From Sphaerochaeta sp. (GTDB lineage Bacteria > Spirochaetota > Spirochaetia > Sphaerochaetales > Sphaerochaetaceae), in the NCBI GenBank assembly GCA_018399495.1, contig JAGYOG010000001.1, positions 62,001 through 126,000 on the forward strand: a DNA stretch of 64,000 nucleotides, read 5' to 3'. A program made the position numbers and the translations under genes. Positions 2,232 to 27,606 of the stretch are shown piece after piece (position 1 is the first letter of the stretch; each line of letters begins with the position of its first letter). A model generated the notes under the pieces. That model was not told the DNA's origin. It saw only the letters and a program-made list of their open reading frames with translations, and made no database searches.

Positions 2232-3713
2232 TTATCTAATAAACCGTTTCAAAGCCCTGCTGTTGGAGAGCAAGGTTACAATCACCAATAAGAGCAAGAC
2301 CAATGTAATGGGTCTGCCCAGCAATGCCACAAGGAATGCATCCTCACTGGAAGCAAGTGAGATAGCTCTCCTGAAGTTGGAATCCATCATCCCTCCAAGC
2401 ACGATGGCAAGTGTCATGGGAGCAACCGAGTAGGAACGACGTCGCATAAAAAAGCCCAATACACCAAAAAAGAACATCAGGTAAACATCAAACATCCTGT
2501 TGTTTGTTGCAAAAGATCCAATAATGCAGAGTACGGTAACCAAGGGGAGAAGAATCCGCTTCTGTACCGCAATGATTTTGCTGATCCTTGGAGCAACCAG
2601 CAGCCCCAGGACCAAGAGAAAGATACTCCCAATAAAGCCACCTGCGAGAATTGCATGGAACATAGGGGCACTGGTCTTGATGAACATCGGACCGGGCCGC
2701 AATCCATGTACATAGAAAACTGAAAGTATGATCGCGGTGACTGCGTCTCCCGGAATTGCGAGGGTCAGCATGGGAATCATAGCCCCTCCAATACAGGCAT
2801 TATTGGCTGATTCACTGGCAACAATACCCTCTACAGCTCCCTCTCCGAACGGGACCGATGGATTTTTTACCAATTTTTTTGCCTGGCTGTAGGCAAGAAA
2901 AGCTGCAACAGGTCCGCCCGCACCAGGCAGTGCGCCAATGACAACCCCGATGGTCGCATACCACAGTGAGATGGGGGTATGGCGAATCACTTCCTTAGTC
3001 TGTAGTTTCTGATAAGAAAGTGAGTGTACACCACCTCCCTTGAGACTGGTGGAGATGACCATCAACACCTCAGAAAACCCATAGAGACCAACCAAGGCTG
3101 GGACGATGTTGATGCCTGCCTGAAGATTCTTAACACCAAAGGTCATCCTGGCGGTACCCATGACCGAGTCGATGCCGACCATGCTGAAGAATAGACCAAG
3201 ACAAGCACTAATAAGCCCCTTGGCAAAATGTTTCGTGGTCAATGAACCAACGGTGGTCAAACCAAAGGTAGCAAGTAAAAAGTAGTCCATGGGGGTGAAT
3301 TTCAACGCTATAGAGGAAATCGGCTTAGCAACAACAGCCAACGCGAGGAATCCAAAGAGTGTACCAATGAATGAGTATAGTACTGCATAGATCAAGGCCT
3401 TGTAGGCCTCTCCCGCTCTTGCAAGTGGAAAACCATCAAGGGTAGTTACCACTGAAGAGGGAGCTCCAGGAATATTAATCAGGATAGCTGAGAGCGCTCC
3501 ACTGAACACGCCTACCACATAGACACCCATGATGGTGGCAAGGGCATTGGTGGTTTGCCACGAGTAGGTGATGGATACCAGAAGCGCTGTTGCCATGGAG
3601 ACTGACAAACCAGGAATGGAGCCCACAAAAAGACCGGCAAGTGATCCGGCAAAAACAAGCAATACAAACTGAAGATCGAGCGCATAGAAAAAAATTCCAA
3701 GAAACGTATTCAT
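2232..3713 (-). CDS. tctA: Tripartite tricarboxylate transporter, large membrane subunit TctA
   Basis: Large permease subunit of a TTT transporter, which imports carboxylates using an ion gradient. The 493 aa length is normal for TctA, the protein is almost entirely hydrophobic with about eleven to twelve membrane segments, and it carries the family's glycine-rich motif GALPGAGGPVAAFLAYS near the middle. The start ATG follows AGGAGG at a spacing of five. It sits 12 bases after tctB and 15 before aroA. Substrate is not readable from sequence; citrate-like acids are common but the family is broad. Confidence 0.93.
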   Translation of the reverse strand: MNTFLGIFFYALDLQFVLLVFAGSLAGLFVGSIPGLSVSMATALLVSITYSWQTTNALATIMGVYVVGVFSGALSAILINIPGAPSSVVTTLDGFPLARAGEAYKALIYAVLYSFIGTLFGFLALAVVAKPISSIALKFTPMDYFLLATFGLTTVGSLTTKHFAKGLISACLGLFFSMVGIDSVMGTARMTFGVKNLQAGINIVPALVGLYGFSEVLMVISTSLKGGGVHSLSYQKLQTKEVIRHTPISLWYATIGVVIGALPGAGGPVAAFLAYSQAKKLVKNPSVPFGEGAVEGIVASESANNACIGGAMIPMLTLAIPGDAVTAIILSVFYVHGLRPGPMFIKTSAPMFHAILAGGFIGSIFLLVLGLLVAPRISKIIAVQKRILLPLVTVLCIIGSFATNNRMFDVYLMFFFGVLGFFMRRRSYSVAPMTLAIVLGGMMDSNFRRAISLASSEDAFLVALLGRPITLVLLLLVIVTLLSNSRALKRFIR

Positions 3714-3725
3714 TATTCCCTCCTC

Positions 3726-4181
3726 CTATGGAAGCATTACATGCAACAGCTTTCCAAAGAGAAGATACATCAGAGAAGGAAACCCCACAGAAAGCAAGCT
3801 TATCAAGAGATACCTCCGCTCTCCAAGGTAAAAGAGCAAGCCGAAAAGGAATAAGGTTGTGGAGACAAGAAACGTAAGATACGGCATCACAATGATATAG
3901 GCAAAGGTCCCAAGCGCGACCACAGTAGTATCACGTACCAAGAACAATACTTGTGTGTCATCTCTATTCTCTTTGCCTGCAGAACGAATAAGCAATAGCG
4001 ACAAGGGGAGCAGGAATACCGCAACAAGAAGTGGGAACAGATAGGGAGACTGCTGCCATACCACTTTTGCTCGTTGATGCTCCACCAGCGAATACACAAT
4101 GGCTGAGAAGGATAAAAGGAGAAACACGAATCCTTCGACTCGCGTGTAGGTTCCACTTCTTGACAGGTGTGTTTCTTCCAT
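3726..4181 (-). CDS. tctB: Tripartite tricarboxylate transporter, small membrane subunit TctB
   Basis: Small membrane subunit that partners TctA. The 151 aa protein has four predicted hydrophobic segments (about residues 13-30, 37-58, 78-100 and 105-145), as TctB proteins do. TctB is poorly conserved, so the call leans on position between tctC and tctA as well as size and topology. I chose the ATG at 4181 because AAGGAG stands six bases upstream; an upstream in-frame start five codons earlier has no such site. Confidence 0.85.
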   Translation of the reverse strand: MEETHLSRSGTYTRVEGFVFLLLSFSAIVYSLVEHQRAKVVWQQSPYLFPLLVAVFLLPLSLLLIRSAGKENRDDTQVLFLVRDTTVVALGTFAYIIVMPYLTFLVSTTLFLFGLLFYLGERRYLLISLLSVGFPSLMYLLFGKLLHVMLP

Positions 4182-4235
4182 GTGAACTCCTTGCAAAGGG
4201 TCTTGCAGAATAACTTCTGTAAGACCTACTAGTCA

Positions 4236-5267
4236 TTAGTACTGTGATTTCTCAATCCCGAACTTCTCAGGACTGAATTTAGCTACCCCACTATCGTAGA
4301 GCATCCAAGAAACCAGGGACTCCCAATCTTTGTAGAAATCACGCATTGACGATTCTTCAGGGTACTTCTCATAGAGCTTGTCCAGCGAATTCTTTGCTAC
4401 AAACTCTTTCCAAGCAGGTTCCTGTACAGCTTTCTTGGCTGCATCACGAAGGATGGTCACAATCTCGGAAGGAACATCCTTGTCCACCAAGAAAGAAAGC
4501 GGAGTAAATGGATTGGAGAGATAACGTTCTGAACCAGGGAGAATCTCACCTAGGGTAGGAACATCATGGTGTGCTTCCAGCCGGTCAAGGGCAGAGATGC
4601 CCAGCAACTTCAAGTCACCACTTTCCAGATATCCGGTAACCGTTGAGTAGTTTGAGTTGGTGAAATCAACTTGGTCTCCCAATACAGCAAGGATGCAGTC
4701 AGCGCCACCTGGGTATGCGGTAAGGGCCATTTCCATCCCGAACTTGCCATAGATCATTGCCTGCACGTGCCCTGATCCGCCTGGTCCGGTATAACTCATT
4801 TTCACTTTCCCGGGGCGGTTCTTGATGTCATCCACGAGATCCTGAAGGGTCTCATATTTTGAATATTTGCCTACAACAATTACCTTCGGGTCATTGACCG
4901 CCACCATGATCGGGGTGAAATCATCATAACTCATCTCACTCAGTCCCATTACTCTCTGGGTTCCCAGTGATTCAGCAGTAAAGAGGACGGTATACCCATC
5001 ACTCTTCGCGTCAAGAACGGTGCGAGCACCGATGGAACCGCTTGCACCACCCTGATTGATGACAGTGATGCTCTTTCCAAGATGTTTTTCCAATTGGACA
5101 GCCAGTTGTCTGCCGCTGATGTCGGTGGTTCCCCCAGCTCCATAGGGAACGATCATGGTAATCGGTTTGGTAGGGTACGAAGCATCCACCGATTCAGTGG
5201 TTCCAGCGCCCCAGAGCATCGAGATGGACAAAAGCAACAGAGAGAAAACAAGCAACTTGTGTTTCAT
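4236..5267 (-). CDS. tctC: Tripartite tricarboxylate transporter solute-binding receptor TctC (Bug family)
   Basis: Periplasmic receptor that delivers the substrate to TctA/TctB. Residues 1-22 form a signal peptide (lysine-rich start, then a leucine/serine-rich core ending near WGAG), with no lipobox cysteine. The mature part starts with the family pattern YPTKPITMIVPYGAGGTTD followed by an SGSIGART segment. The 343 aa length is slightly above the usual 320. Start ATG follows AGGAGG at short spacing. First gene of the operon; about 190 bases of AT-rich DNA upstream hold the likely promoter and operator region. Confidence 0.92.
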   Translation of the reverse strand: MKHKLLVFSLLLLSISMLWGAGTTESVDASYPTKPITMIVPYGAGGTTDISGRQLAVQLEKHLGKSITVINQGGASGSIGARTVLDAKSDGYTVLFTAESLGTQRVMGLSEMSYDDFTPIMVAVNDPKVIVVGKYSKYETLQDLVDDIKNRPGKVKMSYTGPGGSGHVQAMIYGKFGMEMALTAYPGGADCILAVLGDQVDFTNSNYSTVTGYLESGDLKLLGISALDRLEAHHDVPTLGEILPGSERYLSNPFTPLSFLVDKDVPSEIVTILRDAAKKAVQEPAWKEFVAKNSLDKLYEKYPEESSMRDFYKDWESLVSWMLYDSGVAKFSPEKFGIEKSQY

Positions 5268-14224: not shown

Positions 14225-15199
14225 TTACCGGTACGAGATGGAAAGAATACGCTTTCCACCTGCAGCATAGGTGATATCACAATACGGACGTCCCTCACTG
14301 TAGAGCGTCTGGACCCGTTTTCCGTCATCAAGGTAATGTAAGATGCTGGTAGTGCGACCTGCTTCTCGCTCTTCAACCATCATTTTTTCTCCCTTTTCAT
14401 ATCGGCTTACAATCTCACTTCCATCATTATTAATGGTGTATTCACTAAGCAGTACGTTCTCTTCATTATACCGGTATTCAGTCTCACTGAAAGGACTTTT
14501 CTTCAAAACCAATAAACCCTGCTCATCGTAGCTCTCTTGGACTTGCCTGCCGTCTGCCAAAGTGCGATTAACAGTAAAGGATCCTGTCTCTTCCACAACC
14601 ACATCCAATTGCTCATCCTCTGTTTCAGTGGAAAAAGGCTTGGTGATGGTACTTCCCTTGATGGTAAGAAATGTTTGTCCTCCCTTGGTATCTGCATAGG
14701 TGAACGAGTGCTGCTTCCCTTCCTGATTGAAGTAGCGGATTGAACTTGCTTCTCCCTTCACCGTAACAACAGCAAGCAAACTCCCAGTAGTTGCAGAATA
14801 GGTGAAGAGCTGTGCCTCTTGAAAAGAGCCATCCTGATAGGTAGTGATTCTCTCAAGCTTCCCATCCTCCCCATAATAATACGAGTAGGAGATAGTCCCA
14901 ATTTGTTCCTCGCGCAACACCCCATCCCTGAAGATGCGTGAAGACTTCACCTCACCATCAGCGGTGGAACGATGAACAATCCGTATACCATCCTCGCTAT
15001 CGGAAGTGGTCTCTTTCCAGAGTAACCCCTCAGGACCCCAGAGTTCCCTGCTCCCTTCTTCGGTAAGAACAAGATGATAGGGGCTGCTTCCTGATAACGT
15101 TATACGCTCCTGGGCAATGCTGTTTGATTCTACCAAGGTTGAAGCAAACACCAAGGAAAAACAGAGAAACATAGCTAGGCTAAACAGGATGTGTTTCAT
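14225..15199 (-). CDS. Secreted or periplasmic protein with tandem YD-like repeats
   Basis: A 324 aa protein with a signal peptide (residues 1-19, ending near VFAST). The body is made of many short beta-rich units of the kind YxYxEDGKLxRIxxYxDG or YxEQGLLVLKKxx, reminiscent of the YD repeats of Rhs proteins and of MORN-like toxin-immunity families, without any catalytic domain. I do not recognise a specific family. It lies one base after ftsY and two before the exporter permease, so it probably belongs with the exporter, for example as an envelope partner or cargo; this is inference from position only. Confidence 0.7.
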   Translation of the reverse strand: MKHILFSLAMFLCFSLVFASTLVESNSIAQERITLSGSSPYHLVLTEEGSRELWGPEGLLWKETTSDSEDGIRIVHRSTADGEVKSSRIFRDGVLREEQIGTISYSYYYGEDGKLERITTYQDGSFQEAQLFTYSATTGSLLAVVTVKGEASSIRYFNQEGKQHSFTYADTKGGQTFLTIKGSTITKPFSTETEDEQLDVVVEETGSFTVNRTLADGRQVQESYDEQGLLVLKKSPFSETEYRYNEENVLLSEYTINNDGSEIVSRYEKGEKMMVEEREAGRTTSILHYLDDGKRVQTLYSEGRPYCDITYAAGGKRILSISYR

Positions 15200-15200
15200 C

Positions 15201-16076
15201 TTAATCAGTCAGACCTACCAAAGTGTTAAGGAATTCTTCCTTGTCAAAGACCTTAATATCCTGATATTTCTCACCTGTACCCACAAATGAAACAGGAATA
15301 CCAAACTTTTCACCGATTTGGACCAAGGATCCACCTTTTGCAAGACTATCATATTTGGAAAGAATCAGACCATCAAGCTTTACTGCCTGATTGAACAGTT
15401 CTGCCTGGCTGATCCCGTTTTGACCGGTAGTGCTGTCAATTACAAGAAACTTCTTGTAGTTGATTTCTTCTATACCCCTACCCTTTACAATCTTGTCAAT
15501 CTTGGAGAGTTCTCTAAGCAGATTTTCCTTGTTGTGCATTCTCCCAGCAGTATCAACCAAGATAAGGTCTTCCCCTCTTGCTTGAGCAGAGGTGATTGCA
15601 TCGAAAACAACTGCCCCAGGATCACTTCCGCTCTTCTGTTTTACAATCCTGCAACCCAGGCGGGTCGCATGCACTTCCAGCTGGTCTATTGCAGCAGCTC
15701 GAAAAGTATCAGCTGCAGCAAGCAAAACTTGTTTCCCTTGTTTCTTGTACATACTTGCAAGTTTTGCAATCGTGGTGGTCTTTCCAACCCCGTTGACTCC
15801 CAGGATCAGGAATACTGTCAATTTTCCCGATTCCAGCTTAGGCTGGAACGCATCTATCTTTCCTTGAAGGTGTTTTTTAACCAACAACTGCAAATCTTCT
15901 GTTGTCTTCGATTTTTCACTTTTTGCCCGTTTTCTGACCTCATCACTGATAGTGAAGGCAAGCTTGGCTCCCAAATCACCTTCAATGAGGAAATCCTCAA
16001 GTTGTTCAAAATATGACTCATCAAACGTATTGATTCCAAACAGGGCTTTCAACTTTGCCCCAAAACCTTTCAACAT
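15201..16076 (-). CDS. ftsY: Signal recognition particle receptor FtsY
   Basis: Docks ribosome-SRP complexes at the membrane. The 291 aa protein is the short NG-domain form without the acidic A domain. The N domain covers about 1-85, and the GTPase domain has G1 GVNGVGKTT (93-101), ADTFRAAA, DTAGRMHN, SKYD in place of the usual TKxD, and GTGEKYQD near the end. I chose the ATG at 16076 because GAGGAG stands six bases upstream; an earlier in-frame start would overlap the PEGA gene. Ffh, its partner, is at 52.7-54.0 kb. Confidence 0.95.
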   Translation of the reverse strand: MLKGFGAKLKALFGINTFDESYFEQLEDFLIEGDLGAKLAFTISDEVRKRAKSEKSKTTEDLQLLVKKHLQGKIDAFQPKLESGKLTVFLILGVNGVGKTTTIAKLASMYKKQGKQVLLAAADTFRAAAIDQLEVHATRLGCRIVKQKSGSDPGAVVFDAITSAQARGEDLILVDTAGRMHNKENLLRELSKIDKIVKGRGIEEINYKKFLVIDSTTGQNGISQAELFNQAVKLDGLILSKYDSLAKGGSLVQIGEKFGIPVSFVGTGEKYQDIKVFDKEEFLNTLVGLTD

Positions 16077-16095
16077 ATAATGCTCCTCATCATAT

Positions 16096-17373
16096 TCAAA
16101 TACCTGCTTCGGCCATGGATTCATAGGAGAGAAAGTCCACTACCATTGCAATCGAGCTTACCAGCGCCAACGAACTGGTTCCAACCAAGCCTACCTGCCA
16201 AAGCGGATTGTCAGTCGCATACATTTGGCTCAAGACGGTACTCCCAATATAGGTACCGAACCACAGAATAGTATTTCTCAGCCGTTTGTAGAAGTCCTTC
16301 TGTGCATCATCACGCAGAGATGGGGAGGCTAATTCCTTTGTATTAAGCGTAATCGACAACGCTTGAGAAGGGGGACTATCGAGATGGACAACCTTCTGGG
16401 CAAATTCTTCCCCACTCAAGGTAAGCATCATTGGATATGTTGGATCAGAAAGAGAAATGGAAAGATGCTCACCCAAAGGTTTCCCATTAAGGAACCAATG
16501 GACTTTCCCCATTTCACTATGCAATACAACAGGGGGAAAGCTTACTTCCTCAAAAGAGAATTGGAGAGGTTGAATGATATCAGCCTTACTCTCCACCTCC
16601 ATCTCCACCGGTTGGTACCCTGGAGCATGCAACTTCAAGGAATGGTTTCCTGGAGAAAGAATAAGTCTGGTATCGAGAGAATCACTAGGTTTTCCATCTA
16701 CCGAAATTGCTAGTCCAGGAGGAACGTTCGTAAGTGTTAGTATCCCAAGATTGCCCTTGCTCATACTTGCAAAAAGTGCTTTCCCAAAGGGTTCCTCCAA
16801 CACTTGATAATAAGCGTTTTGAACCAAGGAGTCAGTGAGAGTCTTCTTCGCTATCAAGAACGGATAATAGTATTGAATTTTTATTCGCTGGAAACCAGCA
16901 AGGTCCTCAGAATCCAGTAGCAATAACGCATTAAACTTGTTTTTTGAACAGAACCAAGCAAGGGCATCATCACTTTCTTGCAAGGCACTTGCTAAGTCAG
17001 GGTTGAATGGTATTACCTGATATATAACCGAAAGGGGCTCAATCCTTACTGGTGCTTCTTGCAGTCCTTCATCTAAAATCTGTTGTATTTTCTCTTGATC
17101 ATGTAAATCATATGCTCTTGCAAGCTCAATATGTTGTTGGATCTGTGCCTGTTTTTCCCAAGCAGCAGTGAGTGATTTTTGTTCAGATTCATCAAGAAAG
17201 AGTTGGCTACCATAGCGTTCAGCTACGGTAACTACCATCTCAGTCAGTGTATCAAGCCTTGCATCAAGGGGAACAATACCAACAGAGAAAGGCAACGTTC
17301 CCTCTTGTGCTACCAAAGGTGAGACGAAGAAGAGAAGCAGCATACATACTGTAAGGGCCATGTTTTTGCCCAT
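16096..17373 (-). CDS. PEGA-domain protein, envelope associated
   Basis: A 425 aa protein with a signal peptide (1-22, ending VAQ), an extracytoplasmic region, a PEGA-like domain at about 215-275 (TNVPPGLAISVDGKPSD, LSPGNHSLKLHAPGYQP) followed by a second similar beta unit, and a C-terminal hydrophobic stretch (about 370-415) that could hold two membrane segments. PEGA domains are found in surface-layer and envelope proteins of many spirochaetes. Starts three bases after prfB behind a GGAGGAG site and ends 19 before ftsY. The exact role is unknown. Confidence 0.75.
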   Translation of the reverse strand: MGKNMALTVCMLLLFFVSPLVAQEGTLPFSVGIVPLDARLDTLTEMVVTVAERYGSQLFLDESEQKSLTAAWEKQAQIQQHIELARAYDLHDQEKIQQILDEGLQEAPVRIEPLSVIYQVIPFNPDLASALQESDDALAWFCSKNKFNALLLLDSEDLAGFQRIKIQYYYPFLIAKKTLTDSLVQNAYYQVLEEPFGKALFASMSKGNLGILTLTNVPPGLAISVDGKPSDSLDTRLILSPGNHSLKLHAPGYQPVEMEVESKADIIQPLQFSFEEVSFPPVVLHSEMGKVHWFLNGKPLGEHLSISLSDPTYPMMLTLSGEEFAQKVVHLDSPPSQALSITLNTKELASPSLRDDAQKDFYKRLRNTILWFGTYIGSTVLSQMYATDNPLWQVGLVGTSSLALVSSIAMVVDFLSYESMAEAGI

Positions 17374-17376
17374 GCC

Positions 17377-18481
17377 CTACTCCTCCTTTTGCCCCCATTG
17401 CAAATAGCTTTCGATGAGAGGTTCTATCTCTCCATCCATTACTGCCTGGATATTTCCGATGGTAGCGCCTGTACGATGGTCCTTGACCATGGTATAGGGT
17501 TGGAACACATAGGAACGTATCTGGCTACCCCAGGTTATTTCTTTCTTTTCAATCGCATTTTTTTGATGCTCCTTCTCCTTCTCTGCTCGATAATACTCGT
17601 AGAGTCGGCTTTTAAGCATTTTAAATGCGACATCTTTATTCATCACTTGGCTTCGCTCGTTCTGACACTGTACAACAATTCCGCTAGCATAGTGTGTAAT
17701 TCTTACTGCACTGTCAGTTTTGTTGACGTGCTGTCCTCCAGCACCGCCAGCCCGATATGTATCAAGACGGTAATCTTCAGGTTTCAGATCAATCTCAATC
17801 GTGTCATCAATAACAGGAGAGGCATATACACTGGTGAAAGAGGTATGACGACGTTTCTGGGAATCGAAAGGACTGATACGCACCAATCGGTGAACTCCAG
17901 CTTCGCCCTTCAAATAGCCAAAAACGTAAGGACCGGAGATTTTGATGGTGGCACTCTTGATACCTCCCTCATCCTCCTGCAGATCGAGAACTTGGCTCTT
18001 GAATCTGTTTCGTTCACAATACCTGAGATACATACGCATCAACATGTTTGCCCAGTCACTGGCTTCAGTTCCGCCTGCTCCTGCATGAATGGTAAGAAAA
18101 CAGTCATTCTTGTCGAACTTTCCATCGAGCAGTGTTTTTACCCGGAGTTTTTGATAAACAGCAAGCAATGTCTCAACTTGCTCGTTGATCTGTGCTTCTT
18201 CCACCGGGTTATCCGGTTCGTCTGCATAGATATCCATGAGCTCGCTCATCTCATCCATCTTATCTAGCAATTCTTTCCAGGTGTTATACGTTTCCTTCAA
18301 ACCGTTGAGCTCAGTAAACAAAGCTTGTGCATTGTTGGGATCGTCCCAAAATCCAGGTACCAACGTTTTCGCCTCAAGATTTGCTATTTGAGTTTCCATC
18401 CCTTGCGGGTCAAAGACGCCTCCATACGGTGTAGGCTTCTTCTTTTACTGATTCAAACTGTGATTTATTCTGAAAAAACAT
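17377..18481 (-). CDS. prfB: Peptide chain release factor 2, expressed by programmed +1 frameshift
   Basis: Recognises UAA and UGA and triggers peptide release. The first 23 codons (18481-18413) end in CTT followed by an in-frame TGA at 18412-18410. Reading slips by one base (T at 18412 skipped) to GAC at 18411-18409 and continues to the stop at 17377, giving about 367 aa, the usual RF2 length. The RF2-specific SPF tripeptide appears as ISPFDSQKRRH and the catalytic GGQ as AGGAGGQHVNK. The start ATG at 18481 has AGGAG seven bases upstream, 11 bases after the stop of the GH57-like gene. Scarce RF2 favours frameshifting, so the gene is autoregulated by its own product. Confidence 0.96.
18409..18423 (-). 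promoter_or_regulatory. prfB programmed +1 frameshift site
   Basis: Minus strand reads GGAGG CGT CTT TGA C. An SD-like GGAGG (18423-18419) stands three bases before the slippery CTT codon, and the stop is TGA followed by C, a weak termination context. Spacing and order equal those of the well-studied Escherichia coli prfB element. Confidence 0.95.
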
Positions 18482-18491
18482 GTGTGTACTC

Positions 18492-20390
18492 CTATTTTCG
18501 TTCAACACGAAGGCCCAAGGTAAGCTTCTTTTCTTCACCACTAGCCAAGACAAGCGGCCATGAGGCCATAAACAGGGTGTGTTGGTAGAGGGTTTCGTTT
18601 CCAAGGATCGTTTCGCTCTCAATAGTATAGTCTTCCTTGAGCAAGGTAAAGCGGGTATCGCCCACTAGGGTCAGGGAAGTACTGTTTGGTTCATCATAGA
18701 TTCTTAACGATTTTACTTGATCAAGGACCACTTCCTTCTCATTCCATGTAAGATTTTTCTTGTTCTCCAACTGGATGAAGGAGAGAGGAAAAGCGTAGGA
18801 GCCAACAGAAAGGGGTATCTCACACCCATATATGCAACTGATCGCTTCCTCTCCAATGTTGGTCAACGTAATATCAACCAAAATTGTGTTCTGACGAAGT
18901 TTAAAATGCTTGGTGACTTGCAAGCTCCCACCTATGATTGGACTGTATCCCGTAGTACAGGATGCCAAATACTCAGTATTTCGTCGATCAACACCTTTGA
19001 TATCATAGACTTGTGTCCCCATGTATAAGCAACTCTTCTCATTACGTTTATCAAACTCGTCCATGATAAAGTGCTCGCCGAGGAATACATCACTGAACAA
19101 CCTTTGCTTTTGTCCTGGTGAAAGCCGGTGTTGGTTACTACTCGTACTCCCAAACTGTGAAAGAGGACTAAAAGTATCGCCATAATTATACAAGGAAGGC
19201 AAATAGGTAAGTTCAGAAAGCGCCCCCCCTTTCGCATCAACCACACAACTTAGGTACTTTCCGATAAACAGATACTCTGTAAGGGCATCATGATCAAAGT
19301 CATTATTGACTGGATAACTATAATCCTTAAGTGAAGAAAGCACACTGTCCGCTTCGCTGATATATCTCCAAAACATTTTTCTCACTGATGAGCGGAGCAT
19401 TGAAGCATTAGCATCACAGAGATACATGCTTCCACATGACATTTTCTGAATCAACGCTTCCAAGCGTTTTCTTACATCCTTGTCCTTCTTGTACAAACGG
19501 GCAGTCTCCACCATCGTGGTATAGCGTCCGTAGAGATAGGCAAGGCTTTCATCCTTGACAAACAACTCATTGATACAGCCAAGGCCTTCCTTACATGCAT
19601 CGTTACCATACCACCCGGCTTGCAGATATCCTTTTTTTGGAGGGTCGTTTTGCAGATGAGCCTCTTCTATAGAGCTCGTCTCAAACCCAAATAGAAGATC
19701 AAATAGTTGTATAATCTGCTGAGCGGTTATTCCACCTTGCAACAAATGATCAAGATTGATCATTGCCATGACAAAGGGCGCTTTATTCTCTAGGTATCCT
19801 CTAATCTGTTCAATAAGATTACCAAAACTAATAGTTCTTCTTGCAAAGGATTCTATCAAGCCATTGATGATATCATCAGTGGGAATGATGGAAATAGACT
19901 TACCCATTTCCTGCATGATGAACGGTTCACTAAATTGTTGTCCACCATTCCCATCAGAAGTGGAAATAACTATAGAATCAATAAAACAAAGATTTGCTGT
20001 ATTGATGTAGAGCGGGTTAAAAACTTGTCCATAGCTAAAAAGTGTCTTTGAACGCTGCGAAAAACGCTTTCTCAAATACGTAGTGGTCATCTCTATTTGG
20101 TTGGAACGATCCTTTGGAGAGAGCAAACTCAAAACACTCTGATTGAATGAACCGGTCAACAATTCAATCTTTCCGTTCTTGGCAAGGTCGGATATCAAAA
20201 GATTTACTGAACTATGGTTTACATCAAGCCAATTAAGCAAGGGAATACTCAAGGAGAGTTGCATAATTGCACCCTCATGAGCATGTAGATTCGTAAGCAA
20301 AGGTTTGCATACAGCTTCCAATGCCCGTTCGTAAACGGGCATTGGTTCAGCATTCGTGATTTGGCTGTACGCACCTACTAATAATTTCAT
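18492..20390 (-). CDS. GH57-like glucanotransferase relative, probably catalytically inactive
   Basis: The 632 aa protein follows the GH57 4-alpha-glucanotransferase layout: an N-terminal barrel-like part with IPLLNWLD, IELLTGSFNQSVLSLLSPKDRSNQIE and an FNP segment, then a C-terminal beta domain of the DUF1926 kind (GGALSELTYLPSLYNYGDTFSP). From memory of the Thermococcus enzyme, the nucleophile Glu in TERVWQP aligns with Gly121 in SYGQVFNP, the N-terminal HNHQP motif reads AYSQITN, and the HDDGEKFG acid/base region is replaced by INLDHLLQG. So the fold may remain but the chemistry appears lost. It lies 3 bases after rnfB and 11 before prfB. A sugar-binding or regulatory role is possible. Confidence 0.7.
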   Translation of the reverse strand: MKLLVGAYSQITNAEPMPVYERALEAVCKPLLTNLHAHEGAIMQLSLSIPLLNWLDVNHSSVNLLISDLAKNGKIELLTGSFNQSVLSLLSPKDRSNQIEMTTTYLRKRFSQRSKTLFSYGQVFNPLYINTANLCFIDSIVISTSDGNGGQQFSEPFIMQEMGKSISIIPTDDIINGLIESFARRTISFGNLIEQIRGYLENKAPFVMAMINLDHLLQGGITAQQIIQLFDLLFGFETSSIEEAHLQNDPPKKGYLQAGWYGNDACKEGLGCINELFVKDESLAYLYGRYTTMVETARLYKKDKDVRKRLEALIQKMSCGSMYLCDANASMLRSSVRKMFWRYISEADSVLSSLKDYSYPVNNDFDHDALTEYLFIGKYLSCVVDAKGGALSELTYLPSLYNYGDTFSPLSQFGSTSSNQHRLSPGQKQRLFSDVFLGEHFIMDEFDKRNEKSCLYMGTQVYDIKGVDRRNTEYLASCTTGYSPIIGGSLQVTKHFKLRQNTILVDITLTNIGEEAISCIYGCEIPLSVGSYAFPLSFIQLENKKNLTWNEKEVVLDQVKSLRIYDEPNSTSLTLVGDTRFTLLKEDYTIESETILGNETLYQHTLFMASWPLVLASGEEKKLTLGLRVERK

Positions 20391-20393
20391 GCA

Positions 20394-21194
20394 TTACCGC
20401 TTAATGATACACTTAGTCGGACACGCCTCTGCAGCATCAGCTATCTGGCTGTGTGGGAGTGTCTGATCGAAGGTAGAAAGGAATCTGTCAACTTTACATC
20501 CAGATTCATGATACTTGTTTTCACAGATTTTGCAACCAATACAACCGACAGTACATACTTTTCGTACCTTGCCGCCTGGTTCGTGGCTGTTGCATTCAAT
20601 AACATATTCACTATCTTCATATATCATCTGCATTGCCCCAGTTGGGCAGATATCCACACACTTTTCACAGCTGATACACTTCTTCTCATCAACAATAATG
20701 TACCCTTCAGCATCCCTGCTGATGGCACCGGTGGGACAAACATTAATACAAGAACCAAGATGCAGACAGGCTGTCTTGCAACTATAATCCCCACCAAAGA
20801 GGAGGAATGCTGCATTACAATCCTCAAGACCTTCGTAGTTATAGTCTTTGGAACTCACCTCGACATTTCCGCGGCACATGACGTGAGCAACTTTCCGTCT
20901 CGTTTCTCCCGTAGTCTCCACCTTCTGCCCCATGATTTCAGCCATCTTGGCTACCAAATCAGGGCCACCAGGACTACAAAGTCCAATCGGTGCCTCTCCA
21001 CTTGCTACGGCTGCAGCATAGGCAGCACAACCTGCATATCCACAAACACCACAGTTTGCTCCCGGCATAATGGGTTCCAAAGCCAACGCTTTTGGATCTT
21101 TTTTAACTGCTAACTTCTTTTCAGCATAGGAGAGACCAAATCCGAAAAGTCCACCCAATACGGCGACTACAATTATTGCCATTATAATATTCAC
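20394..21194 (-). CDS. rnfB: Rnf complex subunit RnfB (iron-sulfur ferredoxin-like)
   Basis: Entry point for electrons from reduced ferredoxin. The 266 aa protein has an N-terminal membrane anchor (3-22), an Fe-S cluster motif with C48, C51, C56 and C73 (GANCGVCGYAGC ... GLCSPGG), and a ferredoxin-like region with repeated CxxCxxCxxxCP-type motifs (CINVCPTGA, CISCEKCVDICPTGA) plus a further cysteine cluster (CTVGCIGCKICE) near the C-terminus. Sixth in rnfCDGEAB, 11 bases after rnfA. Confidence 0.95.
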   Translation of the reverse strand: MNIIMAIIVVAVLGGLFGFGLSYAEKKLAVKKDPKALALEPIMPGANCGVCGYAGCAAYAAAVASGEAPIGLCSPGGPDLVAKMAEIMGQKVETTGETRRKVAHVMCRGNVEVSSKDYNYEGLEDCNAAFLLFGGDYSCKTACLHLGSCINVCPTGAISRDAEGYIIVDEKKCISCEKCVDICPTGAMQMIYEDSEYVIECNSHEPGGKVRKVCTVGCIGCKICENKYHESGCKVDRFLSTFDQTLPHSQIADAAEACPTKCIIKR

Positions 21195-21205
21195 AACGAT
21201 CCCCC

Positions 21206-21799
21206 TTATACCAGATGCAGATTGGTGAGCAGTGACTTATCAAAAGCCATGAAGGCCAAAGCCATCAGCCCAGCTGAAATGAAAGCGATGGGAACGCCAC
21301 GATATGCTTTTCTCACTGGTTGTAGATCAAGTTTTTCCCGAATATTGCTCATCAGTACGATGGCCAAGGTAAAACCAAGCCCTGCTGCAATACCACCTAC
21401 AAACGCTTCCATGACGTTGTACTCATTGGTGATGTTGATTATTGCAATACCCAGAACTGCACAGTTGGTGGTAATCAAGGGGAGATAGATACCCAATGCC
21501 TTGTACAAGGCTGGACTGATCTTCTGTATTACCATTTCCAATAGTTGTACCAAACTCGCAATAACTAGAATGAAGGTCAATGTCTGCAGATACTGCAGAT
21601 TGAAGGGAACCAACAAAAAGTAATAAATCGCCCACGTCACCACAGATGCAACGGTGGTTACAAAAGTTACCGAGGCACCCATTCCGATGGCATTTTCACT
21701 GTTCTTGGAGACACCAATGAAGGGACAAACTCCCAAGAACTGTACAAGAATGAAGTTATTGATGAAAATAAATGTTATTAGAATTGCAATATAACTCAT
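21206..21799 (-). CDS. rnfA: Rnf complex membrane subunit RnfA
   Basis: One of two paired membrane subunits that, with RnfE, carry an intramembrane Fe-S cluster and the ion path. The 197 aa protein has six hydrophobic segments, the family start FIFINNFILVQFLGVCPFIGVS with its cysteine, and the later LPLITTNCAVLGIAI with the second conserved cysteine. Starts one base after the rnfE stop. Confidence 0.95.
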   Translation of the reverse strand: MSYIAILITFIFINNFILVQFLGVCPFIGVSKNSENAIGMGASVTFVTTVASVVTWAIYYFLLVPFNLQYLQTLTFILVIASLVQLLEMVIQKISPALYKALGIYLPLITTNCAVLGIAIINITNEYNVMEAFVGGIAAGLGFTLAIVLMSNIREKLDLQPVRKAYRGVPIAFISAGLMALAFMAFDKSLLTNLHLV

Positions 21800-21800
21800 C

Positions 21801-22430
21801 TTACCTGTCCTTCTTTCGTGAGGAGTTCCAATCGAAGAACGCCTTCAAGAATCCCATGATCAACAAAGCACCCGGAGCCAGGGAAAGAACCCTGATAGGA
21901 TTATCATAAAACCAAGGGATGTTGATGACACCACTAAAGTCCCCCATCGGGAACAAGGTGATGGTACCTGAACCGAACAACTCACGGATCAATGCAATGA
22001 GTGTGAGGCCCAAAGCAAAGCCTATAGCCATTCCGAGTGCATCCAAGATGCTGTCCACAATGGTATTCTTGCTTGCAAATGCCTCAGCTCTACCTAAAAT
22101 GATACAGTTTACTACAATCAAGGGAAGATACACGCCCAACGCACTGTATACCGCGGGAACAAAAGCATGCATAACCATCTCGGTAATGGTAACCAAAGTG
22201 GCGATGACGACAATATACGCCGGAATATGGATGGATGGGGGAATTACATGTCGTAGGCCGGAGATGATGATGTTGCTGAAAAGCAACACAAACAATACTC
22301 CTGCTGACATACCAATTGCATTGGAGACCTGTGTGGAAACACCAAGTACCGGACAGAGTCCCAACATGAGGACAAAAATCGGGTTTTCCTTGAAAAATCC
22401 TTTGGTGAGCTCTTTTGACCCCTTATTCAT
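21801..22430 (-). CDS. rnfE: Rnf complex membrane subunit RnfE
   Basis: Partner of RnfA, 209 aa with about six membrane segments. It has the matching cysteine motifs MLGLCPVLGVS and LPLIVVNCIILGRAEAF, which distinguish RnfE by the RAEAF extension. Overlaps the end of rnfG by 4 bases and is followed by rnfA after one base. Confidence 0.95.
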   Translation of the reverse strand: MNKGSKELTKGFFKENPIFVLMLGLCPVLGVSTQVSNAIGMSAGVLFVLLFSNIIISGLRHVIPPSIHIPAYIVVIATLVTITEMVMHAFVPAVYSALGVYLPLIVVNCIILGRAEAFASKNTIVDSILDALGMAIGFALGLTLIALIRELFGSGTITLFPMGDFSGVINIPWFYDNPIRVLSLAPGALLIMGFLKAFFDWNSSRKKDR

Positions 22431-22984
22431 TTCGTACCTCCAAGCGCTTTCACATAGGCACTACCAGCGTCAATCGCCTTCCCTACCGCAGTGAATGTAA
22501 CGGATGCTCCACTTACTGACTGTGCATCACTGTCAGAAAGCATATCTTTGGAAGTGGGAACTGCTCTCTCACTCCCTGTTCCCTTGAACTTATCCATGTA
22601 GGAGGCCTGTGCCGCTTTTGCACCAAGGCCTGGTGTTTCACCATGGTTTAAAAGCTGTGCAGCAAGCATCTTACCAGAGAGAGCATAGGATGCTACCAAG
22701 GTCATCTGCCCGCCATAGCCGGCACTCTGTAAGCCGACGATATAGCCCATCAATTCGTTATTTTCTGTAAGATCAATAGAATAGGTAACATATTTGTTTC
22801 CTTCAACCATCTCCTGTTCTCCAAACGTATAGCCAGCACTAACTGCCTCTAGGGCTTTGTTTTTCTTTTCAAGATCAAGCTGCACGATGACTGGTGCAGT
22901 CACTGAATTGGTAAGTGCCAAGGCAAAAGCACAGACCGCACAGATGGAAAACAATATCAGTGAATATTTCAGATTCTTTGTCAT
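22427..22984 (-). CDS. rnfG: Rnf complex FMN-binding subunit RnfG
   Basis: Periplasm-facing flavoprotein of the complex. The 185 aa protein has an N-terminal membrane anchor (7-28) and the covalent flavinylation motif SGASVT at residues 158-163, where the last Thr carries FMN through a phosphoester. HGETPGLGAKA, typical of the FMN-binding domain, is at about 114-124. Overlaps rnfD by 4 bases and rnfE by 4 bases. Confidence 0.94.
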   Translation of the reverse strand: MTKNLKYSLILFSICAVCAFALALTNSVTAPVIVQLDLEKKNKALEAVSAGYTFGEQEMVEGNKYVTYSIDLTENNELMGYIVGLQSAGYGGQMTLVASYALSGKMLAAQLLNHGETPGLGAKAAQASYMDKFKGTGSERAVPTSKDMLSDSDAQSVSGASVTFTAVGKAIDAGSAYVKALGGTK

Positions 22985-24075
22985 GCCCTTGCCTCCTTCT
23001 GTTTCTTTCTAAGTTCTCTGGTATCACCAAACTTACGGGGAATGATATATCTGTCTATCATGGGCGTGAAGATATTCATTAACAGAATAGAGACAGAGAC
23101 AGCCTCAGGCATGCTGCCGAAATATCTGAAGAGGAATGTAAAGAACCCACATCCTATGGCATACACGAATTGACCTTTATGGCTGATTGGGCTGGTAACA
23201 TAATCAGTTGCCATGAAAATGGCTCCAAGCATCAGACCACCACTGAACATTGAAGAGAGGAAGCTTCCCCCGAACAGGCCCAAGCCAGAAGGGATTCCAC
23301 CAAACATCCAAGACAGTAGTGCGGTTGAGAGGAGATAGGTTACCGGGATATGCCAGGTAATGATCTGTCTTGCCAGTAAGTAGATTCCTCCAATAAGTAG
23401 AGCCAGTGAACTTACCTCACCAATACATCCAGCAACATTGCCGAGGAAGGTATCAATGGTAAAAGCTGAAATTCCTGTCATGGCAGAAATGTTCTGGGCA
23501 AGATCTGTTGCAGGATACCCCATTGAGGAAAGCAAAGAACTGCCATCCAATCCTAAAGTCCCTCCAGAAACCGCCGTCTTGCTTAACGAAAGAGGAGTTG
23601 CAGAGGAAAGTGCATCAGGAAGTACTGAAGCAAGGGTTCTGGGAGCAACAAAACTACTCATCGGTGTAGTAAACGAGAAAAATACGAATATACGACCAGA
23701 GAGTGCAGGATTTGCCCAGTTTGCACCAAGTCCACCAAAAACCCATTTTGCCACAAAAATAGCAAAAACACTGGCAATACAAGGAATAAACAAAGGAATC
23801 GAAGGGCTCATGTTCATTCCGACCAATAGCCCAGTCAAAAACGCTGAACCATCCCACAGGGTTGATTCCTTATATAACCTGCCCAGAAAGTATTCACATA
23901 CCATTGCAGTTATAATTGAGACCCCAAGCACCAAGAGTGACCTAATGCCAAATACATACACACCCCAAAGCACTGCAGGCGTAAGGGCAATTGATACACT
24001 CCACATAATGGAAGCGGTATCCGTCTTCGCATGGAGATGCGGCGAAGAGGAAACCGTGAGAGTAGGCTTATTCAT
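22981..24075 (-). CDS. rnfD: Rnf complex membrane subunit RnfD
   Basis: Large membrane subunit with covalent FMN. The 364 aa protein has about nine to ten membrane segments, the flavinylation motif SATPLS in the middle, and the NWANPALSGR and ATDYVTSP segments of the RnfD/NqrB family. I chose the ATG at 24075, which overlaps the rnfC stop as ATGA and gives the family's typical N-terminus; an upstream extension of 71 codons lies inside rnfC and is not used. Confidence 0.95.
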   Translation of the reverse strand: MNKPTLTVSSSPHLHAKTDTASIMWSVSIALTPAVLWGVYVFGIRSLLVLGVSIITAMVCEYFLGRLYKESTLWDGSAFLTGLLVGMNMSPSIPLFIPCIASVFAIFVAKWVFGGLGANWANPALSGRIFVFFSFTTPMSSFVAPRTLASVLPDALSSATPLSLSKTAVSGGTLGLDGSSLLSSMGYPATDLAQNISAMTGISAFTIDTFLGNVAGCIGEVSSLALLIGGIYLLARQIITWHIPVTYLLSTALLSWMFGGIPSGLGLFGGSFLSSMFSGGLMLGAIFMATDYVTSPISHKGQFVYAIGCGFFTFLFRYFGSMPEAVSVSILLMNIFTPMIDRYIIPRKFGDTRELRKKQKEARA

Positions 24076-25382
24076 TTCTTCTTTCTCCCCAATTTCTTTC
24101 CAGTCTTCATCGTATGAACCAACGGTAGCTGTGCAGGACAAACATAAGCACAACACCCACACTCCTTGCAATCCATCAATGAGATTTTCATGGCTTCTTC
24201 GTACTGACCATTGTTGATATAGCGATAGAGTTTTGCCGGCATCAGTCCAATGGGACAGGCAGCCACGCACCGACCGCAATTGAGACAAGCAGTCGAACGA
24301 AATTTCTTTTGAGCACCAAGAGCAAGCAGTCCACTGGAGCCCTTGGTCATTGGTGTTTCGGTATCAAAGAAAGAAAAACCCATCATCGGTCCACCGCTCA
24401 CTAACTTCTCCGGCTCACTGGAAAAGCCTCCACAAAATGCAAGCAAATCGCTCATTTTCGTCCCTACCGGAGCAAGAACGTTTTTTGGATTGGTAATACA
24501 CTCACCGGTAACGCTGATAACACGTTCGTAGAGACTTTTCTTTAAGACGATTGCCTCATAGATTGCATTACACGTACCGATATTCGCAACCACAGCACCT
24601 ACATCAAGAGGAAGCTTGCCAGAGGGGATTTCCCGGTTGAGCGTTGCCTTGAGCAACTGCTTCTCATCTCCTTGGGGATACTTCATCTTAAGAGCGACAA
24701 TCTCAATGGGATATCCCTTCTGGGCAACTATTTTCTTGAGATGGCTTATACAGTCAGGTTTATTCATCTCGATTCCAACAATAACCCGTGTTGCCTTGAT
24801 AATCTTGGCAGCTATCATGGCGCCTTCAAGAGCTTGTTCACCTTTCTCCAGCATAATCCTGTAGTCAGCTGTCAGATAGGGCTCACATTCCACTCCGTTG
24901 ACCACGAAACTATCAACCTTCTTGTCCTTAGGAATAGAGAATTTCACATGCGCAGGGAAAGCCGCCCCTCCCATGCCAACGATACCCATATCCTTGATAC
25001 TGCTGAGCAGGGTACTCCCATCAAAACTCTTCCAATCAATTTTTTCTTCAACATCAGCGGGTTGTTCTGCATCAGGAATAATAATAAAAGCGTCACATTG
25101 GACGCTGTTGACGAGGGTAACCTTGCGAATTTCCTTGATGGTTCCCGTTACTGGAGAGTGAACATCGCTACTGATAAAGCCTGAGGCTTCCCCAATCTTT
25201 TCACCTTTTACTACGGTATCCCCTTTTGTTTTCAGGGCTTTTGCAGGGGCACCAAGATGCTGGGACAAAGCAACAATCAATTCTGAAGGCATGGGCAATC
25301 GTTCAATTACCTCTGAGCGACTGTATACTTTTCTATCGTCAGGATGCACACCACCCTTACTGAACGTAAGTATTCTTTGCAT
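24072..25382 (-). CDS. rnfC: Rnf complex NADH-binding subunit RnfC
   Basis: Peripheral subunit where NAD is reduced. The 436 aa protein begins GGVHPDDRK, has the FMN/NAD-binding region GMGGAAFPAHVKF and a DSFVVNGVECEPY segment, and ends with two 4Fe-4S motifs (CLNCGRCVAACP and CKECGCCAYVCP) around residues 369-415. Start ATG has AAGGAG eight bases upstream. It is first in the rnf operon and therefore probably heads the whole fifteen-gene run down to rnz. Confidence 0.96.
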   Translation of the reverse strand: MQRILTFSKGGVHPDDRKVYSRSEVIERLPMPSELIVALSQHLGAPAKALKTKGDTVVKGEKIGEASGFISSDVHSPVTGTIKEIRKVTLVNSVQCDAFIIIPDAEQPADVEEKIDWKSFDGSTLLSSIKDMGIVGMGGAAFPAHVKFSIPKDKKVDSFVVNGVECEPYLTADYRIMLEKGEQALEGAMIAAKIIKATRVIVGIEMNKPDCISHLKKIVAQKGYPIEIVALKMKYPQGDEKQLLKATLNREIPSGKLPLDVGAVVANIGTCNAIYEAIVLKKSLYERVISVTGECITNPKNVLAPVGTKMSDLLAFCGGFSSEPEKLVSGGPMMGFSFFDTETPMTKGSSGLLALGAQKKFRSTACLNCGRCVAACPIGLMPAKLYRYINNGQYEEAMKISLMDCKECGCCAYVCPAQLPLVHTMKTGKKLGRKKK

Positions 25383-25407
25383 GCATAACGCTCCTTATGT
25401 ATGGTGA

Positions 25408-25436
25408 TTATTAGTACAGACTGTATATTTTAACAA
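25408..25436 (-). promoter_or_regulatory. Possible promoter for the rnf operon
   Basis: On the minus strand TTGTTA (25436-25431) and TAATAA (25413-25408) are 17 bases apart, about 25 bases before rnfC. The -10 match is only partial. Confidence 0.35.
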
Positions 25437-25464
25437 ATGCTATTCTATTGTACAAGAATTTCGG

Positions 25465-25470
25465 TATAAT
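25465..25470 (+). promoter_or_regulatory. Consensus -10 TATAAT immediately before the P-loop/Asp23 gene
   Basis: A perfect TATAAT lies seven bases before the ATG at 25478. No convincing -35 is visible (the best spaced hexamer is weak). If used, transcription would begin at the start codon. Confidence 0.4.
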
Positions 25471-25477
25471 GAAAACC

Positions 25478-26341
25478 ATGAATCGAGTATTTAAATATGC
25501 TTTCTGGAAATTAAAGGGCATCAAAGTGTATGCCTTGGTCGGTAAGAGCGGAACAGGAAAAAGCTTTCGTTCTAAGCTGATATCCCAAAAATTTCGTATA
25601 GATTTGATAATAGACGATGGGCTCCTTATCCGTGGAGACCGCATTATTGCTGGCAAATCCGCAAAGCGTGAGGAAAATATGCTTTCCGCTGTGAGAACTG
25701 CTGTTTTCGATGATGCAAACCATCAAGATGAAGTACGACAAGCGCTCAGCAAGGATAAATACCATAGAATTCTAATAATTGGAACCAGTGAGAAGATGGT
25801 ATACAAGATTGCTGCCAGGCTTAATCTTCCCCAACCAGAAAAGCTGATGCGTATAGAGGATATCGCAACAAAAGAGCAAATTGATACAGCAATGCGTATC
25901 CGCTACAGCGAGGGGAAACATGTAATTCCTGTCCCTTCTATTGAAATCACACGCAATTATCCTCAAATCGTGTACGACTCAATGCGTGTTTTTTTCAAAC
26001 ATGGAAGGCAAGCTCCTTTCCAGCGGAGAAATGTCAGCTTTGAGAAAACCATTGTTCGTCCCGAATTCAGCAAATACGGTAAGATTACCGTTAGTGAGGC
26101 TGCACTTACGCAGATGGTGGCCCATTGTCTTGATGAGTTCGATAGTCAGATAAAAGTAAAACGAGTACAGGTGCAGGTAAAGGCAGAAGGGTATGCACTT
26201 ACCGTCAAGTTGCGTGTACCGATGCAACATCAAATAGCAACAACTCTTGGGGAACTACAAGAGTACATCGCAGATAGTCTTGAAAAATACGGAGGTATCT
26301 TCGTTTCAAGCGTCAATATCGAAATTGAGGAATGGGGCTAG
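25478..26341 (+). CDS. P-loop ATPase fused to a C-terminal Asp23/Gls24-like domain
   Basis: The 287 aa protein starts with a P-loop NTPase: Walker A VGKSGTGKS (21-29), a following IDLIIDDGLLIRGDRIIAGKSA stretch and an ILIIGTS strand. After about residue 195 there is a domain like alkaline shock protein Asp23/Gls24: GKITVSEAALTQMVAHCLDE, then VQVKAEGYALTVKLRVP and a VSSVNIEIEEWG end. Asp23-family domains act near the envelope in Firmicutes, but the fusion to an ATPase is not something I can assign. No SD precedes either ATG (25469 or 25478). I prefer 25478 because of the TATAAT position. It is divergent from rnf and converges with pcnB by a 4-base overlap. Confidence 0.75.
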   Translation: MNRVFKYAFWKLKGIKVYALVGKSGTGKSFRSKLISQKFRIDLIIDDGLLIRGDRIIAGKSAKREENMLSAVRTAVFDDANHQDEVRQALSKDKYHRILIIGTSEKMVYKIAARLNLPQPEKLMRIEDIATKEQIDTAMRIRYSEGKHVIPVPSIEITRNYPQIVYDSMRVFFKHGRQAPFQRRNVSFEKTIVRPEFSKYGKITVSEAALTQMVAHCLDEFDSQIKVKRVQVQVKAEGYALTVKLRVPMQHQIATTLGELQEYIADSLEKYGGIFVSSVNIEIEEWG

Positions 26342-27606
26342 AGATCATGTGCCTCTGCACTGGTCTTCGGCTGTTCGGTATTGTCCCCTCCACCCTTTGG
26401 GGCGGGGGCTCCTTTTTTGGGACCCCTTCGGTTGTTTCTTCTGCGTGAGCCAGCCTGTGCTTCCCCTGCTCCTTCTGTCCTACCCTTTCTCTTTTGGTTG
26501 GGATTGGGCTTTCGCCGTTGTGGAACTCGGTTCACTGGTCTGCGCATCCTTACACAATTACGCGGGGTCTTGAATCCCCGTTCACTCAAGAGTCGCTCAC
26601 TTGCCAACTCAATATCATAATTGGAAGGGGTCATCGGACTAATCAATACCTTGATTTGACGGAAAGTTTCCTTGAATCGTTCATCAGGGCTCATATGATC
26701 ATCAGCAAAGATGACCAATGGGTCTACCAATGCTTTGATCATATCGGCTAGTTCAACTTCATTACTCTTACCCTGCTTAGCAAGCATGACCTTTGCATCT
26801 AAATCTTCCAGGCTTTTCTGAACCTGAGGAAAATTGCAATAGATTGAAAAAGCGGGAAGCAGGAAAACCAGTAGTTTATACCGATTCAATTCATTGAAAA
26901 TTTTGACACTATGTCCACTGGCAAGAATCTTGTTTACCTCTTCAGTCAGACGGCTGGTGGAGACTCGTGAAAGTTCCCCCGAATGTTTGCGTATGGCTAC
27001 ACGGATACTCCAACGAAGAGCAAACCCTGTGGTGGATGCATATTTGATAGCCCTGATCATACGGACAGGGTCCTCATTGAATGTCACATCCAATGGTATT
27101 ATGGAACTGATACGCTTCTTCTTGAAATCTTCCATGGCATTGTTGAAATCAAGCAACTGTCCGTTGGTTGGATCATAATACAGGCTGTTTACCGAGAAGT
27201 CACGGCGTTTTGCATCCTGATCTATGGACCCAAATACGTTATTGTTTCCTTCCATTGCCTCTTCGCCACTTCTAAAGGTAGAAACTTCCAGCACTTTATC
27301 CTTGAATACGAGATGCACCAACTTGAAACGCTTGCCAATAATCCTCGCATTCCAAAACAAACGCTGGATCTGACGTGGGGAAGCGCTGGTGGCCAGGTCA
27401 AAATCCTTTGGGGTATTTCCTAGCAACAGGTCTCTGACTGCTCCACCTACCAAGTATGCTTCGGCTCCGGAATTTTGTAGTTTACGGATTGCCCAAAGGG
27501 CATCACGATCAATTAGATGGTTCGGTATTTTGTGTTCAAATTGGGTATAAATATTCGCAATAGGTAGCGTTTTCCCATGTTCGTCTTGTTTGTATCGTAT
27601 CAGCAT
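26338..27606 (-). CDS. pcnB: Poly(A) polymerase / tRNA nucleotidyltransferase family protein, PcnB-like
   Basis: Class II nucleotidyltransferase of the PcnB/CCA family. The 422 aa protein has AYLVGGAVRDLLLG and KDFDLATSASPRQI (the catalytic DxD), RRDFSVNSLYYD and FNEDPVRMIRAIKYA in order. It ends with a strongly basic, Arg/Lys/Pro/Gly-rich tail of about 70 residues (RRPVNRVPQRRK ... GPKKGAPAP), probably RNA binding. A separate CCA-adding enzyme is present at 46.8 kb, so this is more likely a poly(A) polymerase. Start at 27606 is chosen because a longer frame would run into the hisS promoter; TATGAG six bases upstream may mark another leaderless start. Confidence 0.85.
   Translation of the reverse strand: MLIRYKQDEHGKTLPIANIYTQFEHKIPNHLIDRDALWAIRKLQNSGAEAYLVGGAVRDLLLGNTPKDFDLATSASPRQIQRLFWNARIIGKRFKLVHLVFKDKVLEVSTFRSGEEAMEGNNNVFGSIDQDAKRRDFSVNSLYYDPTNGQLLDFNNAMEDFKKKRISSIIPLDVTFNEDPVRMIRAIKYASTTGFALRWSIRVAIRKHSGELSRVSTSRLTEEVNKILASGHSVKIFNELNRYKLLVFLLPAFSIYCNFPQVQKSLEDLDAKVMLAKQGKSNEVELADMIKALVDPLVIFADDHMSPDERFKETFRQIKVLISPMTPSNYDIELASERLLSERGFKTPRNCVRMRRPVNRVPQRRKPNPNQKRKGRTEGAGEAQAGSRRRNNRRGPKKGAPAPKGGGDNTEQPKTSAEAHDL

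Follow-up and report, generated by a model that had tools for sequence, protein, structure and literature searches.

A GH57 4-alpha-glucanotransferase-like protein without the catalytic dyad, encoded between rnfB and prfB in Sphaerochaeta

What does a GH57 protein do when its catalytic residues are gone and its gene lies between rnfB and prfB? The question is raised by a gene in the window, the 64,000-nt stretch of Sphaerochaeta sp. DNA analysed here. We favour, with a probability of roughly 0.55, a GH57 pseudoenzyme that descends from an intracellular 4-alpha-glucanotransferase, is non-catalytic and has a rebuilt pocket. We are highly confident in rejecting a normal GH57 enzyme; binding as the mode of action is somewhat better than an even guess. 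The features of the locus are as follows.

18492..20390, minus strand: GH57 4-alpha-glucanotransferase-like pseudoenzyme (P0001, 632 aa), from the ORF, Pfam and the model
19581..20390, minus strand: (beta/alpha)7-barrel domain, residues ~1-270, approximate limits from the model's secondary structure
19311..19580, minus strand: helical domain, residues ~271-360, approximate limits from the model
18495..19310, minus strand: C-terminal beta-sandwich, residues ~361-632, PF09095, from Pfam and the model
20361..20378, minus strand: degenerate CSR-1, VGAYSQ, residues 5-10, Tyr8 and Gln10 opposite His11 and His13 of Thermococcus litoralis 4-alpha-glucanotransferase (TLGT)
20013..20036, minus strand: degenerate CSR-3, SYGQVFNP, residues 119-126, Gly121 opposite the TLGT nucleophile E123
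19743..19763, minus strand: degenerate CSR-4, MINLDHL, residues 210-216, Asn212 opposite TLGT D214 (acid/base) and Asp214 opposite TLGT E216
20394..21194, minus strand: rnfB, immediately upstream, 3 nt from the pseudoenzyme gene, from Pfam/NCBIfam and the neighbourhood
17377..18481, minus strand: prfB with a +1 frameshift, TIGR00020, start ATG 18481 read from the sequence

The pseudoenzyme ORF starts with ATG at 20390 and stops with TAG at 18494-18492. The prfB start at 18481 is 10 nt past the end of the gene, and a ribosome-binding-site-like GGAG for prfB, read from the sequence, overlaps the pseudoenzyme stop codon. Also read from the sequence is CTT TGA C at 18415-18409, which we take to be the prfB +1 frameshift motif. 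Because of this start and the frameshift, the larger gap between the two genes in the ORF listing, which starts prfB too late (18399), is not real.

Gene order was counted in 90 loci, our own included, 87 of which were testable (flank of at least 600 bases). RnfB is encoded directly upstream in 74 of the 87, comprising 50/59 loci of the same family and 24/28 loci from 18 other families; 17 of the 19 families have at least one such locus. PrfB is encoded directly downstream in 58/59 same-family loci and in 9/28 loci of other families. The placement between rnfB and prfB, as given in the initial annotation, thus holds in the window and across loci. In three (L040, L075, and L080) of the 13 loci where rnfB was not detected upstream, diverged rnf-like genes occupy this place, as judged from weak matches or by eye. 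The arrangement is ancient within the class Spirochaetia, so the pseudoenzyme is probably co-produced with Rnf and release factor 2.

Several other features of the neighbourhood were recorded. In several families (L078, L075, L080, L040, L136, L137, and L141), the rnf-like genes next to the pseudoenzyme gene form a strongly diverged cluster, with weak or no matches to RnfA/E; RnfB is undetected in L040, and L141 was recognised by eye only. In some genomes with a diverged cluster, e.g. G112, G234, and G207, strong Rnf-Nqr matches are located elsewhere. Between prfB and ftsY lies the gene of a PEGA-domain protein (16096-17373, minus strand), whose score drops fast in relatives; the 3' end of this gene and the start of ftsY (16124) overlap by 29 nt. 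No RNA family reached the gathering threshold within 15000-27000. Promoter-like sites number 18 (18.4 expected) and terminator-like sites 12 (8.5 expected).

The AlphaFold model of the protein, obtained with 31 sequences, is confident over the full length (mean pLDDT 93.4, pTM 0.90). PDB sequence searches with the protein itself and with a profile built from 30 relatives both returned a sole match, TLGT (1k1w; E 1.6e-82 with the profile). TLGT is also the top structural match of the model (1k1x; Foldseek E 3.2e-39; VIA Z 34.3, rmsd 3.0, 571 residues), compared with a Z of 24.1 for the second-best GH57 structure. By sequence match and best structure Z, the protein is closest to the 4-alpha-glucanotransferases within GH57. 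The model, the structure matches and PF03065 indicate the GH57 fold, a predicted (beta/alpha)7-barrel with a helical bundle, and the superposition on 1k1x supports the earlier proposal that the segments are ordered as in GH57 4-alpha-glucanotransferases.

Pfam assigns PF03065 (GH57) to residues 20-127 (E 1.6e-10, above the cut-off) and PF09095 (AmyA-gluTrfs_C; alpha-amylase/4-alpha-glucanotransferase C-terminal domain) to residues 429-620 (E 6.9e-9). PF09094 is not matched by the helical domain, and an NCBIfam search with the protein returned no family at E <= 1. The C-terminal domain, described as full-length at the outset, is complete in the AlphaFold model; galactose-mutarotase-like chains appear among the structure matches of this beta-sandwich. 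Taken together, the protein shares with TLGT (PDB 1k1w, 1k1x, and 1k1y) the whole-length fold, the domain order and the CSR-2 Glu, but is only 17-19% identical to it in structure alignments, and other residues stand in for the catalytic pair, HNHQP and the YWHG of CSR-5. Sphaerochaeta halotolerans is among the named relatives, at 85% identity. Outside the window, our own genome contains two more GH57 matches, at C1:186074-187027(-) (L001) and C1:188809-189615(+) (L002), the open frames around them being 547 and 813 aa long.

All five GH57 CSRs can be located by alignment, but CSR-2 alone is well kept, whereas signature residues of CSR-1, -3, -4, and -5 are altered. We take E123 and D214 to be the catalytic pair of TLGT. 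The general rule for GH57, as given in part of PMC6037648, is a catalytic Glu at strand 4 and a catalytic Asp at strand 7. Gly121 lies opposite Glu123 in the pairwise, profile, and multiple alignments, and Asn212 lies opposite the proton donor Asp214 in the latter two. Therefore, the catalytic dyad is missing from the pseudoenzyme, which has neither the nucleophile Glu nor the proton donor Asp of an active enzyme. A misaligned catalytic Glu was considered and ruled out, since the three alignments concur on G121. In the family, Glu occupies the nucleophile position in one of the 61 rows with a residue there, and Asn occupies the proton donor position in 60 of 62 rows. AYSQI takes the place of the TLGT motif HNHQP. 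The initial annotation was thus right that the nucleophile is lost at Gly121, that HNHQP is missing and that the acid/base region is not kept. The CSR-2 Glu is retained (TLGT Glu79, pseudoenzyme E76), with a weighted conservation of 73% in the family.

The dyad is intact in all loci sampled elsewhere in the phylum. Nine loci from other classes, those fetched out of a larger set that includes weaker matches, all keep the active-site motifs HxHQP, ERVW/ERIW, and DDGEK. These proteins (e.g. L143 and L147) match the same profile as the pseudoenzyme, and L143 has both PF03065 and PF09095; they differ in their motifs and in that neither rnf nor prfB was detected within the 6-10 kb fetched for each. 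Within the class, both residues are kept in 7/27 rows outside the window's family, in none of 7 further loci, and in 0/62 rows of the family, one of which (L051) keeps the Glu alone. A tree of 89 rows, from a short search and with several long branches, was rooted on TLGT as the one outgroup, leaving out rows shorter than 400 residues and one broken copy (L065). L069, the most intact class member, branches outside the other class members. The fewest changes on this tree are approximately 6 for the Glu, 6 for the Asp, and 4 for the dyad, or 13, 11, and 12 if only losses are allowed. These sequences indicate that the dyad has been eroded repeatedly and stepwise within the class.

If catalysis is gone, what has become of the pocket? 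The 556 columns covered well enough in 62 rows of the family were ranked by conservation, in a list numbered from 0. Tyr261 (position 1), Tyr8 (4), Asn212 (6), and Asp214 (9) are among the ten best-conserved columns, and Gln122 is at position 34. In contrast, the nucleophile site drifts: G121 is at position 341, and G, N, A, Y, D, S, H, W, E, F, and Q all occur there (11 residue types). Gly121 as a newly conserved feature is ruled out by this rank. In the family, N212 is found in 60/62 rows, D214 in 60/62, Y261 in 62/62, and D264 in 61/62; outside the family, the same residues are found in 4, 7, 10, and 3 of 27 rows, respectively. The catalytic face, defined as the C-terminal ends of the barrel strands in the model's secondary structure, is better conserved, with a median entropy of 1.74, than the remaining barrel (2.41; p 4e-4) and the opposite face (2.38; p 1e-3), the p-values assuming independent columns.

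A drifting nucleophile site next to fixed Asn212, Asp214, Tyr8, and Tyr261 indicates a rebuilt pocket, not a lost one, and is consistent with a pseudoenzyme that binds but does not catalyse. In sequence terms, the conservation of the pocket supports binding of something, and since both catalytic residues are lost and the altered pocket is strongly conserved, binding rather than cutting is the most likely activity. An intracellular 4-alpha-glucanotransferase ancestor would have lost both catalytic residues and kept its predicted fold. In the window's family, the pocket would then have been rebuilt around Tyr8, Asn212, Asp214, and Tyr261, together with Gln122, and may bind, without turnover, a ligand that is small and polar, perhaps a sugar. 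The protein may serve as a cytoplasmic ligand-dependent adaptor or regulator. Some points count against this reading. The conserved residues of the catalytic face could be structural, catalysis relocated to the conserved Asp214 and Asp264 is conceivable, and a rebuilt site limited to one family would be odd if the binding function were class-wide.

The ligand could be a glucan, with the protein acting as a glycogen- or maltodextrin-binding sensor or scaffold, a reading that we consider doubtful. It agrees with descent from a 4-alpha-glucanotransferase and with the presence of glycogen synthase (PF08323; 138/149 genomes) and phosphorylase (PF00343; 137/149 genomes) in our own genome. Among 102 good genomes, synthase is found in 91 of 96 with the gene versus 2 of 6 without it, three of those 6 being from one family. 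However, three near-complete genomes of one family (G099, G124, and G142) keep the homologue while synthase and phosphorylase matches are absent, as does G200, a 1.1-Mb genome (99% complete) that has no synthase, phosphorylase, or Rnf-Nqr match; the four are 96-99% complete. In G028, a 95%-complete genome of our own family, the gene occurs with phosphorylase but with no synthase match, and HNHQP and the CSR-5 YWHG residues, as noted, are replaced. The glucan-binding or sensor role suggested initially stays putative. The four near-complete genomes come from other families and so count less against a glycogen role in Sphaerochaeta than in the class at large, and because our own genome has both enzymes, a glucan role may still apply there; on both counts the glycogen reading gains weight.

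Alternatively, the protein could serve the Rnf complex as an accessory or assembly factor, which we regard as unlikely. The position of rnfB directly upstream in most loci and families speaks for it, and in some families the gene stays beside a strongly diverged rnf-like cluster (partly by eye). However, several genera of the family keep the gene at prfB with Rnf-Nqr matches on other contigs (e.g. G071, G032, G058, and G043). Rnf-Nqr (PF02508) is found in 144/149 genomes, including three (G006, G097, and G102; 92-96% complete, G006 in 410 contigs) that have no pseudoenzyme match. Rate covariation was computed for six genes, all present in 42/93 rows (92 loci and the window) and 38 after duplicate removal, using 69/73 branches. 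The partial rho with the pseudoenzyme is 0.38 for rnfB, equalling that for ftsY (0.39), followed by rnfA (0.32), prfB (0.20), and rnfE (0.05), with no clear partner. The positional tie to Rnf is strong, and a working partnership is no more than possible.

A more specific scenario is that in the Spirochaetia a 4-alpha-glucanotransferase beside rnf lost its chemistry stepwise and now couples a metabolite signal to the Rnf pump. The fixed site of the Sphaerochaeta family (Tyr8, Gln122, Asn212-x-Asp214, Tyr261, and Asp264) would bind the metabolite, and the dead homologues elsewhere would have diverged otherwise, one of them in the 1.1-Mb genome without detectable synthase, phosphorylase, or RnfA/E. 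We consider this scenario speculative and improbable as a whole; the confinement of the rebuilt site to one family makes it less likely.

The protein could also still be an enzyme that acts on a new substrate with relocated catalytic residues (e.g. Asp214 or Asp264 with Tyr8 or Tyr261). Y8, N212, D214, Y261, and D264 are nearly invariant in the 62 rows despite the drifting nucleophile site, and the active face is better conserved than the rest of the barrel. However, of the conserved carboxylates only D214 has been placed on the face (strand ends), whereas D264 may lie elsewhere, the CSR-2 Glu is conserved at only 73%, and TLGT is the sole PDB sequence relative. We therefore think relocated catalysis quite unlikely.

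The pseudoenzyme is widespread and under constraint. Homologues (E <= 0.001) are found in 136 of the 149 genomes searched, our own included, and in 23 of 25 other genomes of the genus. Pairwise dN/dS is 0.04-0.10, similar ranges being obtained for prfB (0.02-0.07) and rnfB (0.03-0.10); a number of the dS values are above 1, and no ratio was obtained for saturated pairs. Strong purifying selection acts on the pseudoenzyme, and its conservation as a protein, with open frames, agrees with the earlier view that it is not decaying. One gene copy (L065, in G137, 3189-5102) is split into two ORFs, whereas its same-genus neighbour L062 (G117) is intact. A decaying gene retained by operon position alone, which the degenerate motifs and the broken L065 might suggest, is largely refuted by the dN/dS, by the absence of internal stops from nearly all listed homologue matches and by the confident full-length predicted fold, and is very improbable.

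A non-catalytic GH57 pseudoenzyme of this kind is already in print. PMC6037648 (3 Biotech 2018) describes GH57 'like' groups without one or both catalytic residues, among them '4AGT-like proteins', 63 bacterial GH57 homologues with an average of 623 aa. Compared by description only, on the available parts of that paper, our protein resembles them in being bacterial, of the same size, near the 4-alpha-glucanotransferases and without catalytic residues, both of which are gone here. Those parts of PMC6037648 do not mention gene neighbourhood and defer a detailed analysis elsewhere. A search of the open-access literature returned no report of the rnf/prfB locus, of a rebuilt pocket, of a drifting nucleophile versus a fixed Asn, or of retention without detectable glycogen enzymes. 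The GH57 'like' groups are reportedly also treated in a 2020 paper.

The Pfam annotation of the protein is glycosyl hydrolase, yet the dyad is absent here and is kept in only 7 of the 27 sampled class members outside the family. The relatives form a natural series from enzyme to conserved non-enzyme, being intact outside the class, partly eroded in some of its families and apparently rebuilt in that of Sphaerochaeta. That even a 1.1-Mb genome retains a homologue points to a function in spirochaete physiology that is approachable in the free-living Sphaerochaeta.
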